Assembly: GCA_024696945.1 (NCBI GenBank)
Contig: JAILGF010000185.1
Span: 1 to 64,000 of the forward strand
Reading direction: 5' to 3'
Source of the DNA: Lachnospiraceae bacterium
Lineage (GTDB): Bacteria; Bacillota; Clostridia; Lachnospirales; Lachnospiraceae
DNA: 64,000 nucleotides
Position 1 is the first letter of the stretch, and every line of letters begins with the position of its first letter. The notes under the pieces are model-generated. The model had not been told where the DNA came from. It saw only the letters and a list, made by a program, of their open reading frames with translations, and ran no database searches. Position numbers and translations under genes: made by a program. Shown in pieces: positions 10,503 through 55,024 of this stretch.

Positions 10503-10656
10503 TAATAAAAATATAATGATTTCCCGCGTGCTGCTATCTTGTTTTTTCAAAAATTCTATGGTAGTATATCCCTAGGTACAAAGTGGACACCCTGATTTAG
10601 AGTCAGGAGATCTGCATTGGGTTAAAATATTTGGAGTACTACAAGGAGGTAGCGGT

Positions 10657-10851
10657 ATGGATGTTGGCGGCGTTTTAACAGTTACATTATCAGATGCTAA
10701 GACACGTAACGATATAGGCATGGCTGTGCTTGCAAAGCAGATGGATACCGAAAACCAGGCCGGTGCTGCCATGATAGATATGATGAACAGGACATTTATG
10801 GAGACAAGCGTGAACCCCAATGTCGGCAGCAATATCGATATAAGTATTTAA
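10657..10851 (+). CDS. YjfB-family putative motility protein
   Basis: A 64-residue protein with the YjfB family layout: MDVGGVLTVTLSDAKTRNDI start, central AVLAKQMDTENQAGAAM helix and C-terminal SVNPNVGSNIDI signature. In B. subtilis YjfB is a small protein of unknown biochemical role in the sigma-D motility regulon. AAGGAGG sits 7 bp before the ATG. It is flanked by its own terminator. I find no clear sigma-28 box upstream; a TTGTTT/TAGTAT pair with 17-bp spacing is a possible sigma-A promoter. A small CCTGA/TCAGG hairpin lies in the leader (10592-10608). Confidence 0.88.
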   Translation: MDVGGVLTVTLSDAKTRNDIGMAVLAKQMDTENQAGAAMIDMMNRTFMETSVNPNVGSNIDISI

Positions 10852-11022: not shown

Positions 11023-11051
11023 ACCGCTTGTGCTTGTGAAAAACAAGAAAT

Positions 11052-11124
11052 GCACCTTTAGCTCAGTTGGTAGAGCACCTGACTCTTAATCAGGGTGTCC
11101 AGGGTTCGAGCCCCTGAAGGTGCA
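11052..11124 (+). tRNA. tRNA-Lys(CTT)
   Basis: Acceptor GCACCTT/AAGGTGC with discriminator A, D-arm GCTCAGTTGGTAGAGC, anticodon stem CCTGA/TCAGG with loop CTCTTAA (anticodon CTT, reads AAG), T-loop TTCGAGC. CCA is not encoded. A monocistronic unit with its own promoter and terminator. Confidence 0.97.
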
Positions 11125-11133
11125 TATTTGGGA

Positions 11134-45420: not shown

Positions 45421-45428
45421 ATTATATA

Positions 45429-45596
45429 TTGTAAGGTGGCTGCGAAGCAGACGGAACCTTACAATGTGGCTCCATCGCTTTGCGATGGAGTTCTATAAAT
45501 TGAGTTTGCAGCTGACGGAACCTTACAATGTGGCTCCATCGCTTTGCGATGGAGTGCTAAAGATTGAGTTAGCAGCAGACGGAACCTTACAATGCG
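45429..45596 (+). repeat. 64-bp tandem repeat with nested hairpins
   Basis: Two full 64-bp units (45450-45513, 45514-45577) and a partial third (45578-45596) begin GACGGAACCTTACAA. Each full unit holds a perfect 9-bp hairpin CTCCATCGC-TTT-GCGATGGAG. The first is also enclosed by TTGTAAGGT (45429-45437)/ACCTTACAA (45456-45464) around CTGC-GAA-GCAG. The 189-bp gap to the next gene contains nothing else. A diverged copy is at 59842. Confidence 0.8.
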
Positions 45597-45609
45597 AAAG
45601 GTATATATA

Positions 45610-49914: not shown

Positions 49915-50814
49915 ATGAAACTACTCATACTTACCGGGATGAGCGGATCCGGAAAATCAAAGACCATGAAAATGCTTGAGGACAACGGCTTTTATTGTGT
50001 GGACAACCTCCCCATAAAGCTGTTCTCGGGCTTTGTAAACATGATGCTTCAGATGGAAGATATTCCGAAATACATGGCTATTACTGCAGATGCGAGAAAC
50101 CCGCATATTTCCAAGGAACTTTCCGGTGAGATAGAAGAGATAAAAAGGCGTATTGATGTAAAAATCCTGTTCCTTGACAGCGAGGACGGAATCCTGCTTA
50201 AACGATACAAGGAAACCAGAAGGCTCCATCCTCTTATGGTATTTGACTCAAAACTGGATCTTAATTCTGCGATACAGGAAGAAAGGCATCAGCTTGAGAG
50301 CATCCGTCAGATATCCGATTATATTATCGATACATCATCACTTTCCACTTCGGAGCTAAGAGAAAAACTGCTACAGGTGATAAGCGAAAGCGGTGACGGC
50401 AGGATGAAGCTGAATTTTGTTGCTTTCGGTTATAAATACGGAATACCTTCCGATGCCGATCTTGTATTTGATGTACGCTGCCTTCCGAACCCGTTTTACA
50501 GGCCGGAACTCAGGAATCTTACCGGTATGGATAAAGAGGTACGCGACTACGTTATGGCACAGCCAGAATCCCAAGCACTTTATCAGCGTATTATCGATTA
50601 TCTTGAATGTACATTGCCTATGTACGAAAAGGAAGGAAAGGCCCAGCTGGTAGTCGGCTTCGGGTGTACGGGCGGACAGCACAGGTCTCTCACCTTTGCA
50701 ATCCTGATGGCAAAATACTTTGAAGAAAAAGGCTATGTAACCCAGAAATGGTCAAGGGATAAGAACAGAAACGTCGCTGAGATAAAACAGAGGGACGGGA
50801 TTGACAAAACTTAA
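49915..50814 (+). CDS. rapZ: RNase adapter protein RapZ (YvcJ)
   Basis: A 299-residue nucleotide-binding adapter. The P-loop is GMSGSGKSKTM near 8-18, with YCVDNLPI near 29 and SDYIIDTSSL before the C-terminal domain; the latter has FVAFGYKYGIPSDADLVFDVRCLPNPFY, VGFGCTGGQHRSLTFAILMA and SRDKNRNVAEI. In E. coli RapZ directs RNase E to small RNAs of the amino-sugar pathway; in B. subtilis the YvcJ orthologue affects competence. I choose ATG 49915, seven bases after AAGGG, over an in-frame TTG at 49894. The promoter of the next gene lies inside its 3' end. Confidence 0.95.
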   Translation: MKLLILTGMSGSGKSKTMKMLEDNGFYCVDNLPIKLFSGFVNMMLQMEDIPKYMAITADARNPHISKELSGEIEEIKRRIDVKILFLDSEDGILLKRYKETRRLHPLMVFDSKLDLNSAIQEERHQLESIRQISDYIIDTSSLSTSELREKLLQVISESGDGRMKLNFVAFGYKYGIPSDADLVFDVRCLPNPFYRPELRNLTGMDKEVRDYVMAQPESQALYQRIIDYLECTLPMYEKEGKAQLVVGFGCTGGQHRSLTFAILMAKYFEEKGYVTQKWSRDKNRNVAEIKQRDGIDKT

Positions 50815-50828
50815 AAATATGCTATAAT
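50801..50828 (+). promoter_or_regulatory. Strong sigma-A promoter inside the rapZ 3' end
   Basis: TTGACA (50801-50806), 16-bp spacer, TATAAT (50823-50828). Initiation would fall at about 50835, the base before the left inverted-repeat arm at 50836. Confidence 0.85.
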
Positions 50829-50835
50829 GCGTGCT

Positions 50836-50859
50836 AGTCATCTCTGCTTCGCATATTAT
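50836..50859 (+). repeat. Left arm of long inverted repeat flanking the 50939 lipoprotein gene
   Basis: The 24 bases start AGTCATCTCTGCTTCGCA and end TATTAT. They match the reverse complement of 51460-51483 exactly. Beyond a 4-base gap on the right the similarity continues as GGAGGGA, giving imperfect arms of about 31-32 bp. Confidence 0.92.
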
Positions 50860-50887
50860 GGAGGGATATTTGAAATTGAATGTTATC

Positions 50888-50922
50888 GATCGCCCGATGA
50901 GTAAAAATGACATGGGGCGGTC
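50888..50922 (+). other. Leader hairpin of the lipoprotein transcript
   Basis: GATCGCCC (50888-50895) and GGGCGGTC (50915-50922) pair with one G-T, in the ~100-nt leader between promoter and start codon. No riboswitch class is recognised. Confidence 0.4.
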
Positions 50923-50938
50923 TTATCTGGAGGGAAAG

Positions 50939-51415
50939 ATGAAGAAAGTATTAGCAGTAGTAATGGCACTTGTATTAGTGCTTTCAATGACAGCTTGCGG
51001 AAGCAAAGCAGATATTGACGGAAGCTGGAAGCTTGTATCAATGACGATCAACGACAAGGACGCATTTGAGGGAATCGACCTTAATGCATTGGCTCAGAAG
51101 GGCTACTATCTTGGCGCGACCTGTAAAGATGGTAAGGGTAACCTGACCTTTGGTGATGAAAGTATAGAGTTTACATACGATGACAAGAAGTTCGAAATGA
51201 AGAATGATGACGGAACAACGGATTACATGGATTATTCACGTAACGGCGATAACCTGTCACTTACAAAGGTACAGGATGATGGAAAAATGGTTGTCGCACT
51301 TAAGAAGATGACTGATGATGAAGCTAAGAAGTTTGCATCCCAAACTGAAGAGGATTTAGAGAAGGCCATTCTGCAGATGGTTCTTGAAAGCTATGGCCTC
51401 AGTGCTGATGATTGA
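50939..51415 (+). CDS. Small lipoprotein inside an inverted-repeat cassette
   Basis: The 158-residue protein has a lipoprotein signal MKKVLAVVMALVLVLSMTAC (lipobox Cys20), then a single beta-rich domain (DIDGSWKLVSMTINDKDAFE, YYLGATCKDGKGNLTFGDES, FEMKNDDGTTDYMDYS, MVVALKKMTDDEAKKF) of lipocalin-like look, common in Lachnospiraceae lipoproteins of unknown role, and a short acidic helix. I choose ATG 50939 right after GGAGGGAAAG. It is alone between the two inverted-repeat arms and is driven by the promoter inside rapZ. Confidence 0.85.
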   Translation: MKKVLAVVMALVLVLSMTACGSKADIDGSWKLVSMTINDKDAFEGIDLNALAQKGYYLGATCKDGKGNLTFGDESIEFTYDDKKFEMKNDDGTTDYMDYSRNGDNLSLTKVQDDGKMVVALKKMTDDEAKKFASQTEEDLEKAILQMVLESYGLSADD

Positions 51416-51459
51416 TTTTTTGAAACTTTTTTAATTGTTGAAAGGCAGTCCCTCCATTA

Positions 51460-51483
51460 ATAATATGCGAAGCAGAGATGACT
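51460..51483 (+). repeat. Right arm of long inverted repeat
   Basis: Starts ATAATATGCGAAGCAGAG and ends ATGACT: exact reverse complement of 50836-50859. It lies 45 bp after the lipoprotein stop and 14 bp before the AEC transporter start. Confidence 0.92.
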
Positions 51484-51497
51484 GTTAAGGTGAAAAA

Positions 51498-52436
51498 ATG
51501 TTTGATAACATAGTTTCGGTGGCGACTCAGGTCGTCATTCTTTTTATTATCATAGGTGTCGGCGTAATATTGTCTAAGACAAAGGTCCTTACAAAAGAAA
51601 GAGTCGCGGGACTTATAGATATCGTCGTATATATTGTTACACCATCCAACATAATTATTTCTTTTCAGAGGGAGTTTAAGAATGAGCTGATAGTAAATCT
51701 CGGACTCTCTTTTCTTGCTGCATTTATCGTGTTTTTTATAAACTGCGTGATGGCAAAAATTGTGATCAGGGAGAAGAATCCTGATAAAAACTGCGTTATC
51801 CGTTTCGCTTCGGCCTTCCCGAATGCCGGTTATTTTGCACTTCCCCTGCAGCGTGCGATATTAGGGGACATAGGTGTATTCTTCGGCGCTGCTTACATCG
51901 GCATGTTCCATTGCTATATATGGACGTACGGGGTGAAGCTGCTCGAGAAAAAGGAGACAAGGAACGGTTCCGTTTCTCCGCTGAAAAAGATCCTTCTTAA
52001 TCCTCCCATAATAGGCATTTTTATCGGAATGATCCTGTTTGTGACCGAAATTAAGCTGCCGGATATCGTATACTCCCCGTTACAGGCGTTTTCTTATCTG
52101 AATACTCCGCTTCCTATGCTCATTATCGGGTTTTATCTGGCAAATGCAGACTTGAAGGCAACTTTTTCAAATCTGTGGGTATACATAGGAGCATTTTTAA
52201 GGCTTATTGCATCACCTGCGGTGGCGCTCGGAATATGCTTTCTGCTTAAGGCTGACAGTGATGTGGCAACCTCCTGCATTATAGCTTGTTCAGCTCCTTC
52301 CGCAGCACTTTCGGGCATGCTGGCACAGAAATTCGGCAGGGACACCGAGGTACCGGCAGGAATGATATCCTTTACGACGATCGTATGTATAATCACAATG
52401 CCGGTTATGGTGGCGCTGGCACAGTTCCTGTTTTGA
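51498..52436 (+). CDS. AEC-family (auxin efflux carrier-like) transporter
   Basis: The 312-residue polytopic protein has about ten hydrophobic segments arranged as two five-helix halves. AEC family marks include GVGVILSKTKVLTKERVAGLIDIVVYIVTPSNIIISF in the first half, RFASAFPNAGYFALPLQRAILGD, PPIIGIFIGMILF, LPMLIIGFYLANADL and ACSAPSAALSGMLAQKFGRD in the second. Substrate probably an organic anion or amino-acid derivative. AAGGTG precedes the ATG, just after the right inverted-repeat arm. Confidence 0.9.
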   Translation: MFDNIVSVATQVVILFIIIGVGVILSKTKVLTKERVAGLIDIVVYIVTPSNIIISFQREFKNELIVNLGLSFLAAFIVFFINCVMAKIVIREKNPDKNCVIRFASAFPNAGYFALPLQRAILGDIGVFFGAAYIGMFHCYIWTYGVKLLEKKETRNGSVSPLKKILLNPPIIGIFIGMILFVTEIKLPDIVYSPLQAFSYLNTPLPMLIIGFYLANADLKATFSNLWVYIGAFLRLIASPAVALGICFLLKADSDVATSCIIACSAPSAALSGMLAQKFGRDTEVPAGMISFTTIVCIITMPVMVALAQFLF

Positions 52437-52584: not shown

Positions 52585-52619
52585 ATTTTTCAAGTTTGAA
52601 AAATGTATGGAGGTTTACA

Positions 52620-54026
52620 ATGAAAAAACAGGCTTTTAATCCTTACCTGCCCTCTTGGGAATATGTTCCCGACGGAGAGCCTTATGTATTCGACGGACGT
52701 GTGTATGTCTATGGTTCACACGACCTGTATAACGGACAGGCATTCTGTCTTGGGGATTACGTAGGCTGGTCAGCACCAGTGGACGATCTGGGAAACTGGA
52801 GATATGAGGGGATCACTTACCCCAGGCTTGCAGACCCGGCAAATGACGGAAGAATGGTTCTCTACGCACCCGACGTTACAATAGGACCTGACGGCAGATA
52901 TTATATGTATTATTGCCTCGACAAGGTACCGATTGTATCCGTTGCGGTATGTGATACACCTGCCGGAAAATATGAATTCTACGGACACGTTCATTATCAG
53001 GACGGAACCCGTTTAGGTGAAAGAGAGGGTGACGAGCCTCAGTTTGATCCCGGTGTCATTACCGAGGACGGAAAGACCTATCTTTACACAGGCTTCTGCG
53101 GAATGGGCGATAAATCAAGGACAGGTGCCTTCTGTACAGTCCTTGACAAGGATATGCTTACAATAATAAAAGACCCTGTAAGAGTGGTTCCCGGCTGTAT
53201 GTACAGCGAGGGAAGCGGATTTGAGGGACATGCGTTCTTCGAGGCTTCTTCTATCAGAAAGCGCGGAGATACATATTATTACATCTATTCTTCACAGGTT
53301 ATGCACGAGCTCTGCTATGCGACTTCAAAGTATCCCGATAACGATTTCAAATACGGCGGAGTTATAGTTTCAAACGCAGATATAGGTATTGACAGCTATA
53401 AGCCCAAGGAGATGGTAGCGGGAACAGTCGGAAACGATCACGGAAGCATCGTGCAGATTGGGGAAGACTGGTATATTTTCTATCACCGTCAGACAAACGG
53501 AACATGGTTCAGCCGCCAGGGCTGTGCCGAGAAGATCCATTTCGAAGAGGATGGTTCCATAAAACAGGTTGAGATGACATCCTGCGGACTTAACGGCGGA
53601 CCGTTGGTAGGCAAGGGTGAATATCCCACATATATCTGCTGCAACCTTTTCAATAAGGATGCAAAGCCCGGACCCTTCGGTATGGGAGCCTTCGGAAACA
53701 ATGCAAAGATCATCATGGACGGGCGCGACGGTGACGAAGAGCTCGGATATGTATATAACGTTAAGAAGGGTGATGTCATCGGATTTAAGTACTTTGACTG
53801 CAAGGGCATCACCAAGGTAAGAGTTACCACCAGAGGTTACTCATACGGCTACTTTGAGGTTAGGACCAAATGGGACGGTGAGGTACTCGGAACCATCAAG
53901 CTCGAGAGCTCCAATTTCTGGGAGGCTCACGAGGCCAATATCGCAATACCCGACGGAATAAACGCCCTTTACTTCACATTCTGTGAAGGCGGAAGCTGCA
54001 GCTTCAAATCATTCGAACTGATCTGA
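52620..54026 (+). CDS. Glycoside hydrolase family 43 with C-terminal beta-sandwich
   Basis: The 468-residue enzyme has a five-bladed GH43 propeller over the first ~320 residues: VPDGEPYVFDGRVYVYGSHD (general-base Asp region), YAPDVTIGPDGRYYMYY, FDPGVITEDGKTYLYTG and GHAFFEASSIRKRGDTYYYIY (general-acid Glu region). A CBM6-like beta-sandwich fills ~340-468 (FKYFDCKGITKVRVTTRGYSYGYF). There is no signal peptide, so it acts in the cytosol on imported oligosaccharides, probably as an arabinofuranosidase or xylosidase. I choose ATG 52620 with ATGGAGG six bases upstream. Confidence 0.9.
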   Translation: MKKQAFNPYLPSWEYVPDGEPYVFDGRVYVYGSHDLYNGQAFCLGDYVGWSAPVDDLGNWRYEGITYPRLADPANDGRMVLYAPDVTIGPDGRYYMYYCLDKVPIVSVAVCDTPAGKYEFYGHVHYQDGTRLGEREGDEPQFDPGVITEDGKTYLYTGFCGMGDKSRTGAFCTVLDKDMLTIIKDPVRVVPGCMYSEGSGFEGHAFFEASSIRKRGDTYYYIYSSQVMHELCYATSKYPDNDFKYGGVIVSNADIGIDSYKPKEMVAGTVGNDHGSIVQIGEDWYIFYHRQTNGTWFSRQGCAEKIHFEEDGSIKQVEMTSCGLNGGPLVGKGEYPTYICCNLFNKDAKPGPFGMGAFGNNAKIIMDGRDGDEELGYVYNVKKGDVIGFKYFDCKGITKVRVTTRGYSYGYFEVRTKWDGEVLGTIKLESSNFWEAHEANIAIPDGINALYFTFCEGGSCSFKSFELI

Positions 54027-54043
54027 TAAAAGGAGAATTACAA

Positions 54044-55024
54044 ATGGCAAAACAGAGAGAAGCTTTAGTAACAAATATTTTCACTGCGGATCCTTCCGCA
54101 CATGTATTTAACGATAAGATTTATGTTTATCCTTCACATGACCTTCCTCATGACGGAGCTGACGATGATGAAGGTATAGAGTACGCAATGGAGGATTATC
54201 ATATCCTTTCCATGGATAATCTTGATGAAGCAACCCCCTGCATCGATAACGGCGAAGCACTTCACATGAAGGATATCCCGTGGGTAAGCAAGCAGATGTG
54301 GGCACCCGACGTTGCATTCAAGGATGGAAAATACTACCTTTACTTCCCCGCAAGGGATCAGCAGGGTGTATTCCGTCTTGGCGTAGCCGTAAGCGACAGC
54401 CCCGTAGGTCCCTTTAAGGCAGAGGAAAGCTTCATCCCCGGTAGTATGAGCATCGACCCCGCAGTGTTTGAGGAAAACGGAAGATATTATTGCTACAACG
54501 GCGGACTCTGGGGCGGACAGCTTGAGAAATGGATGACAGGTTCATTTGTTGAGAATCCCAGGGAAATCGGTGAAGACGAGCCCGCACTCGGACCGTTCTT
54601 TGCAGAACTGAACGATGATATGAAGACCTTTAAGGCAACTCCCAAAATGGTACAGATTCTTGATGAGAACGGAGAGCCTATAAAAGCCGGTGATGAGGAC
54701 AGACGTTACTTCGAGGGCCCTTGGATGCATAAATATAACGGACTTTACTACCTTTCATATTCAACCGGTACAACTCATTATCTTGTATATGCTACCGGTA
54801 CTAGTCCCGAAGGTCCGTTTACCTACAGAGGAAGGCTAATGGAGCCCGTAATCGGATGGACAACACATCATTCCATAATCGAATATCACGGAAAGTGGTA
54901 TCTCTTCTATCATGACTGTGAGATTTCAAAGGGTATCAACCACAGAAGAAACGTTAAGTTTACCGAGATATTCTATAATGAGGACGGAACCATTAAGACG
55001 GTATTCCCCTATGACCATAAGTAA
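54044..55024 (+). CDS. Glycoside hydrolase family 43, single-domain
   Basis: The 326-residue intracellular GH43 propeller has FTADPSAHVFNDKIYVYPSHD with the general-base Asp, WVSKQMWAPDVAFKDGKYYLYFPA, SIDPAVFEENGRYYCYNGG, FEGPWMHKYNGLYYLSYSTG with the general-acid Glu, and WTTHHSIIEYHGKWYLFYHD. No signal peptide. It follows the first GH43 gene by 17 bp with GGAG upstream, so both are expressed together and probably split xylan- or arabinan-derived oligosaccharides in the cytosol. No transporter gene is adjacent. Confidence 0.92.
   Translation: MAKQREALVTNIFTADPSAHVFNDKIYVYPSHDLPHDGADDDEGIEYAMEDYHILSMDNLDEATPCIDNGEALHMKDIPWVSKQMWAPDVAFKDGKYYLYFPARDQQGVFRLGVAVSDSPVGPFKAEESFIPGSMSIDPAVFEENGRYYCYNGGLWGGQLEKWMTGSFVENPREIGEDEPALGPFFAELNDDMKTFKATPKMVQILDENGEPIKAGDEDRRYFEGPWMHKYNGLYYLSYSTGTTHYLVYATGTSPEGPFTYRGRLMEPVIGWTTHHSIIEYHGKWYLFYHDCEISKGINHRRNVKFTEIFYNEDGTIKTVFPYDHK

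Follow-up and report, generated by a model that had tools for sequence, protein, structure and literature searches.

Complementary arms around a Lachnospiraceae lipoprotein gene: probable pairing between the 5' and 3' ends of its mRNA

What are two perfectly complementary 24-nt arms doing on either side of a single lipoprotein gene? The question is raised by a locus of a gut-type Lachnospiraceae bacterium (GenBank assembly GCA_024696945.1, contig JAILGF010000185.1) within the window, i.e., the whole stretch of 64,000 nucleotides that was analysed. The first-pass annotation of this DNA had left three readings open: a segment that is inverted to switch the gene on and off, a non-autonomous mobile element with a passenger gene, or an mRNA whose 5' and 3' ends pair. 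The comparative evidence favours the last and speaks against the mobile element; the invertible segment is left without support. We consider it likely that the arms work as RNA and clamp the 5' UTR to the 3' UTR in cis within the lipoprotein mRNA. Control of a bacterial gene by end pairing of this sort has rarely been described. In the following, G000 stands for the genome under study and G0xx for genomes of the same genus, of which 24 were searched.

The features of the locus are compiled in Table 1. The arms had been described as exact reverse complements, which they are; the left one reads AGTCATCTCTGCTTCGCATATTAT. They do enclose one lipoprotein gene, as judged from a signal peptide and a lipobox. 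The promoter had been called strong and had been placed inside rapZ and outside the arms. Its match to the consensus is indeed complete and it lies outside the arms, but it is not wholly inside rapZ: it straddles the stop codon of this gene (50812-50814). The predicted +1, at about 50835/50836, coincides with the left arm's first base. The leaders of G008, G022 and G012 are preceded by a similar -10 element (TGYTATAAT).

Table 1. Positions of the features read or predicted at the lipoprotein locus (window coordinates)
Feature	Position	Strand	Basis or remark
Sigma-70-type promoter, TTGACA-16-TATAAT with TG before the -10	50801..50828	+	12/12 consensus matches
5' arm, 24 nt	50836..50859	+	Begins at predicted +1, 7-8 nt past the -10; reverse complement of 51460-51483
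GGAGGGA extension of the 5' arm	50860..50866	+	Shine-Dalgarno-like, about 70 nt before the ATG of the lipoprotein; MFE fold
Local leader hairpin, GATCGCCC/GGGCGGTC	50888..50922	+	Leader folds
Lipoprotein Shine-Dalgarno, GGAGGG	50929..50934	+	Sequence reading; lies outside the terminal duplex
Lipoprotein, 158 aa (MKKVLAVVMALVLVLSMTACG...)	50939..51415	+	Signal peptide and lipobox by eye; no named family
TCCCTCC, anti-SD-like complement of 50860-50866	51449..51455	+	Sequence, MFE fold
3' arm, 24 nt	51460..51483	+	3' UTR, lipoprotein-permease gap; less than 70 nt past the stop
Permease Shine-Dalgarno, AAGGTG	51487..51492	+	3 nt past the 3' arm; sequence reading
Downstream permease (Mem_trans)	51498..52436	+	Pfam
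Terminator-like hairpin with T run within the start of the permease CDS (about codons 7-14)	51518..51539	+	Consensus scan, folds

Pfam gives the lipoprotein no family, and its NCBIfam matches all stay below the cut-off and mostly concern signal peptides. An open in-frame stretch (50858-50941) with ATG and TTG codons and the Shine-Dalgarno-like GGAGGGA runs into the lipoprotein ORF; a similar open stretch, there without a standard start, precedes the lipoprotein in G012 (by eye). An N-terminally extended lipoprotein beginning at one of the in-frame upstream starts was considered and set aside, because its signal peptide would end up buried. The gene that follows encodes a permease, which we take to be of the AEC type. 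Beyond it lies a GH43-type gene pair (52596-55024), the orientation of which, taken against the permease, is reversed in G008, G022 and G012. A consensus scan of the plus strand found no terminator-like site between rapZ and the lipoprotein gene and none between the latter and the start of the permease; the transcript of G000 may therefore run on. Rfam had no match at E ≤ 1 in 50700-51600.

The complementarity does not end with the perfect arms. It can be extended without gaps to 31 nt at 90% identity. A bulge of 4 nt (51456-51459) also allows GGAGGGA, next to the left arm, to pair with TCCCTCC, next to the right one; an imperfect continuation into a GGAGGGA block had been noted before. In the MFE fold of the predicted transcript, about 31 bp join both ends (energy z = -8.6; 0 of 20 shuffles). 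When the full-length transcript is folded, positions 1-22 of the 5' arm pair with probabilities of 0.89-1.0, the last two with 0.64 and 0.20.

Arms of this length are exceptional in this genome. Only three perfect inverted repeats (24, 15 and 14 nt) reach 14 nt or more with a spacing of 150-2000 between the arms in 195,602 non-N bases, a sample that comprises the window and the readable part of 20 further stretches of the same genome, two of which were all N and contributed nothing. The repeat around the lipoprotein gene is the longest perfect one of its kind in these 195.6 kb. Since there are just three in so many bases, a chance origin of the 24-nt arms is excluded. Nor is the arm a common dispersed repeat, a suspicion that called for a genome search: a 22-nt piece of it has no third copy at up to 3 mismatches in the 3.9 Mb assembly (232 contigs, 86% complete) and is thus unique to its two places. 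The core of the arm, TCTGCTTCGCA, had also been reported from other repeats of the window, and rightly so. One more exact copy is found at 45441-45451, within a hairpin repeat, and at up to one mismatch there are 7 copies in the window, compared with 1.05 in shuffles. The hairpin repeat itself (45425-45600) consists of tandem-like units (TTGTAAGGT...GCTGCGAAGCAGACGGAACCTTACAATG, then CTCCATCGCTTTGCGATGGAG) and has the TGCGAAGCAGA core in common with the arms.

How often, then, are the flanks of a gene complementary to each other? For each of 144 ATG ORFs of the same genome, 140 nt of upstream flank were compared with 110 nt of downstream flank. In 143 of them the longest perfect match measures 5-10 nt; the remaining one is the lipoprotein gene. 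Its score was 22 nt here, since the scan took an ATG inside the arm as the start of its ORF. Matches of 10 nt occurred in 3 other ORFs of the 144, and when GTG and TTG starts are allowed, one other ORF, the tRNA-Lys case described at the end, reaches 14 nt. In the relatives, one unrelated gene has a match of 12 nt and another one of 13 nt, in a sample of overlapping loci that counts some genes twice. Length alone can therefore not single out the orthologues in G012 or G007, which are discussed below. An unrelated gene of G003 (L037:4473-5375, minus strand) has 13-nt complementary flanks that read TGACAGCGGGAGA.

In the genus, the lipoprotein yielded 18 matches in 11 of the 24 genomes. In the 10 genomes other than G000, the best match has 33-52% identity. 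We used 10 matches, one per genome and G000 included, and left out 8 second or weak ones, the sole match of G004 among them. The gene follows rapZ in six genomes (G000, G001, G003, G006, G007 and G019). A -10-like box stands upstream of it in 10 of 10 orthologues, as TATAAT in nine and as TTAAAAT in G018.

Three of the nine orthologues other than that of G000 also have complementary ends. G008 and G012, with 52% and 46% protein identity, respectively, carry CTCTGCTTCG in the leader and CGAAGCAGAG past the stop codon, and the letters around these cores have diverged. G007 has a different pair of 13 nt, ATTCACATATTAC and GTAATATGTGAAT; its arm begins at nucleotide 78 of the leader. In G000, G008 and G012 the arm starts at the predicted +1 or about 16 nt past it. 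The 3' core is located just upstream of a terminator-like hairpin in G007 and G012 and within the loop of such a hairpin in G008 (by eye). Out of the 24 arm columns, 15 still pair in G008, 14 in G012 and 19 in G007. The longest perfect complementarity between leader and 3' UTR is 24 nt in G000, 11 in G008, 10 in G012 and 13 in G007, lengths that were matched by 0, 0, 2 and 0, respectively, of 300 dinucleotide shuffles of the 3' UTR, the extents of the UTRs being predicted. In 6 of the 10 orthologues (G022, G019, G001, G003, G006 and G018) the complementarity is unremarkable (59 to 272 of 300 shuffles), and pairing as a property of all orthologues had to be rejected. All ten distant homologues tried, three genes of G120 and G423 and seven loci from the wider searches described below, are without pairing (6-7 nt); for the seven loci the match length was equalled in 162-292 of 300 shuffles.

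Folding of the full-length transcripts predicts a long-range helix in 4 of 4 cases. The cores pair with a probability of 0.86-1.0 in G008, G012 and G007, as do 22 of the 24 arm positions in G000. Two other measures single out G000. The expected number of pairs between leader and 3' UTR is above that of the shuffles there alone (0/40; G008 6/40, G012 6/40, G007 12/40), and there alone is the RNAduplex energy clearly unusual (0/300; the next one is G006 with 18/300). The anti-SD-like extension was not seen in the relatives.

If the sequences of G007 and G000 are aligned by TTCRCATATTAY, 14 pairs form one continuous helix, in which three two-sided changes keep the pairing (C-G to A-U, G-C to A-U and U-A to C-G) and one change is one-sided, a count drawn from few sequences. 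The 3' UTRs are identical at 14 of 18 positions, which 4 of 300 shuffles matched; the homology of the arms is thus moderate. Isolated two-sided changes outside helices occur at chance level.

Searches were extended beyond the genus. Among genome contigs at large, at least 27 loci were matched, with no further close one; in 21 of the 27 listed, the match does not go past residue 57. Across the family, 334 of 397 genomes were matched, again with no further close locus, and many of the matches listed concern the signal peptide alone. A scan of viral contigs for the lipoprotein produced 14 pattern matches and no relative.

One point in favour of pairing of the mRNA's ends is the position of the arms, the left one at the predicted +1 of a unit and the right one shortly past the stop codon of the same unit. 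The lipoprotein mRNA would start at the left arm and would hold the right arm in its 3' UTR. Once transcribed, the two ends would anneal to a perfect terminal duplex of 24 bp, or of about 31 bp with the bulge. As the first nucleotides would be tied up in a helix, 5'-end-dependent decay and RNase Y would have poor access to the 5' end; the lipoprotein's own Shine-Dalgarno sequence would remain outside the helix. What the DNA shows directly is the sequence of the arms, their place with respect to promoter and stop codon, and the pattern among the relatives; the start of transcription, the 3' end of the transcript, the pairing itself and its consequence are all things that we infer. Most likely, protection of the 5' end would be the role of the helix, with processing by RNase III as the strongest rival.

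Three bacterial RNAs have been named as pairing their own 5' and 3' UTRs, RNAIII, icaR and hbs, and a wider use of such pairing is said to need investigation (PMC7821165). In icaR of Staphylococcus aureus, a UCCCCUG motif in the 3' UTR, 260 nt past the stop codon, pairs with the Shine-Dalgarno sequence of the same mRNA, blocks its translation and invites RNase III (PMC3868564). As in icaR, the 5' and 3' UTRs of our mRNA are complementary to each other, the duplex is a possible substrate of RNase III, and an anti-SD-like TCCCTCC faces GGAGGGA. In contrast to icaR, the arm begins at the predicted +1, is perfect over 24 nt, lies less than 70 nt from the stop codon and leaves the gene's own Shine-Dalgarno sequence free; a helix over the own ribosome binding site, the feature of the icaR subtype, is thus absent.

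In hbs of Bacillus subtilis, a 14-nt helix between the 5' and 3' UTRs masks a site for RNase Y and makes the mRNA more stable (PMC7821165, PMC8406224). The likeness again is a helix between leader and 3' UTR, and its length is near the 10-13 nt of G008, G012 and G007; the matches in these relatives look more like hbs. The helix of G000, however, has roughly double that length and starts right at the 5' terminus predicted for the mRNA, and its protective effect is presumed. In RNAIII of S. aureus the long-range pairing of the ends consists of a 7-nt helix (A24-G30 with 452-458), and the molecule acts also in trans (PMC7821165). It resembles our case as an RNA that encodes a small protein and pairs its distant ends, yet the helix measures 7 nt there and belongs to a trans-acting regulatory RNA. 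Conservation is not guaranteed in the known cases either: icaR of S. epidermidis is without the pairing motif, and the 3' UTR of hbs is not conserved in close relatives (PMC7821165). A literature search, made largely at the level of records, found no example of 5'/3'-UTR pairing from Lachnospiraceae. The class of mechanism is known, but this search turned up no other 24-bp clamp that starts at the predicted +1 and recurs in shorter form in three other species. If true, the present case would offer a natural series of helix lengths for testing end pairing against mRNA lifetime and sensitivity to RNase III.

Of course, the same helix could serve a different end. A duplex of 24-31 bp, as in G000, is long enough for a substrate of RNase III, one of 10-13 bp is short for this enzyme, and the leader/trailer stems around rRNAs are a precedent for processing. 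The duplex might exist mainly to be cut, in which case RNase III would trim or destroy the lipoprotein mRNA or excise it from a rapZ-lipoprotein-permease read-through. Such cutting shares the pairing with the protection that we prefer and differs from it in effect; we regard it as possible, if rather less probable. It is in line with the lack of plus-strand terminator-like sites before the gene and before the permease start, and with icaR, the 5'/3'-UTR duplex of which is cut by RNase III (PMC3868564). The relatives, however, do not fit well: the perfect cores of G008, G012 and G007 extend over just 10-13 bp, and the units of G012 and G007 have a terminator-like hairpin of their own and no co-directional permease after them.

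The hairpin within the start of the permease gene adds another aspect. By eye, a stem of the GCGAC/GTCGC type is present in 6 of 6 genomes that have the lipoprotein gene directly before the permease (G000, G008, G022, G003, G019 and G006) and absent in 8 of 8 others (G012, G013, G016, G007, G009, G004, G023 and G021); the comparison was made without G001, where a second lipoprotein-like gene lies between the lipoprotein gene and the permease. The pattern may reflect shared descent, since most of the six genomes are close relatives. The hairpin could be where the lipoprotein mRNA ends, and it could attenuate the permease. It is conceivable, though we say so tentatively, that a class of end-clamped mRNAs exists in Lachnospiraceae, in which the 5' terminus would be locked by the mRNA's own 3' UTR. 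Its helix would be kept by compensatory change and drift in length from 10 to 31 bp, and the self-closed mRNA would gate its decay and possibly, together with the terminator-like hairpin, transcription into the permease.

The arms might not pair with each other at all. They could be two binding sites on DNA, an operator pair with DNA looping, or they could act in trans on other RNAs, as the authors of the icaR study leave possible for their case (PMC3868564). Both places have retained the core in three species, which would suit these ideas, too. In G000, G008 and G012 both locus copies of the 10-mer are mutually inverted, as RNA pairing needs; sites for a protein, though, could be arranged likewise. 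Altogether, the 10-mer is rare, with 12 copies in G000, 7 in G008 and 12 in G012, compared with 5, 5 and 6 for the reversed control. Apart from the two at the locus, the 10 copies of G000 lie without exception in mechanical ORFs of at least 100 aa, by a crude rule under which the left arm, too, counts as in an ORF; because of this no regulon is visible, and a regulon of binding sites was rejected. In G007, moreover, several pairs have other letters than in G000 on either side. We therefore think that sites on DNA or an action in trans are improbable.

To about the same degree we doubt that the arms of G000 are a recent inverted duplication without function and that the shorter matches in the relatives are inherited or coincidental. 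The 6 of 10 genus orthologues without pairing would agree with this view, as would the 10-nt matches in 3 of 144 other genes. A 10-11-mer shared by both UTRs of three diverged species, in addition to a perfect match of 24 nt, is however unlikely to have arisen by chance.

Inverted arms around a gene are also typical of MITEs and of phase-variable invertible segments, and here the likeness lies. It ends with the arms being unrepeated, with no recombinase nearby, and with arms that track the ends of a transcript, not those of a moved segment. Pfam named no recombinase among 10 genes between 46.6 and 56.4 kb, the lipoprotein gene being one of them, and no target-site duplication could be read in the flanks of the arms; in both respects the first-pass annotation holds.

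The locus is arranged differently in G012, a MAG of 83% completeness and 6% contamination. Its rapZ abuts the permease gene, with no gap for a lipoprotein unit, and the junction is devoid of promoter and arms. The lipoprotein gene is found about 1.9 kb beyond the permease, after a gene for an AAA-type ATPase, with its own TATAAT, its leader and both cores. The gene has thus changed place. Since G012 differs in the place of promoter, gene and 3' UTR together, the arms do not delimit the segment that moved.

For an ON/OFF switch, a recombinase would have to flip 50836-51483 at the arms and thereby uncouple the gene from the outside promoter. The exact inversion of the arms and the position of the promoter comply with this idea. 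Yet the genes scanned around the locus include no recombinase, a -10-like box precedes the gene in 10 of 10 orthologues, all of them in one orientation, the perfect match in the relatives is just 10-13 nt, and the arms of G007 differ jointly from those of G000, all of which makes the switch very improbable. A MITE-like element carrying the gene between terminal inverted repeats, or a dispersed repeat of any such kind, is the least credible of all: G012 does have the unit beyond the permease and not between rapZ and permease, but 22 nt of the arm have no further copy in the genome at up to 3 mismatches, the flanks are without target-site duplication, and the relocated part includes the promoter that lies outside the arms and that the G012 junction lacks as well.

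The tRNA-Lys case mentioned above is of a different nature. Before a small gene that starts at 10657 and is presumably YjfB-like, a stretch of 30 nt (10584-10613) complements the region of the anticodon arm of tRNA-Lys(CTT) (11051-11125) at 90%. An exact 23-mer of this stretch occurs here alone among 24 genus genomes, and the 19 other 23-mer matches listed all carry the letter of tRNA-Lys at the single differing position.
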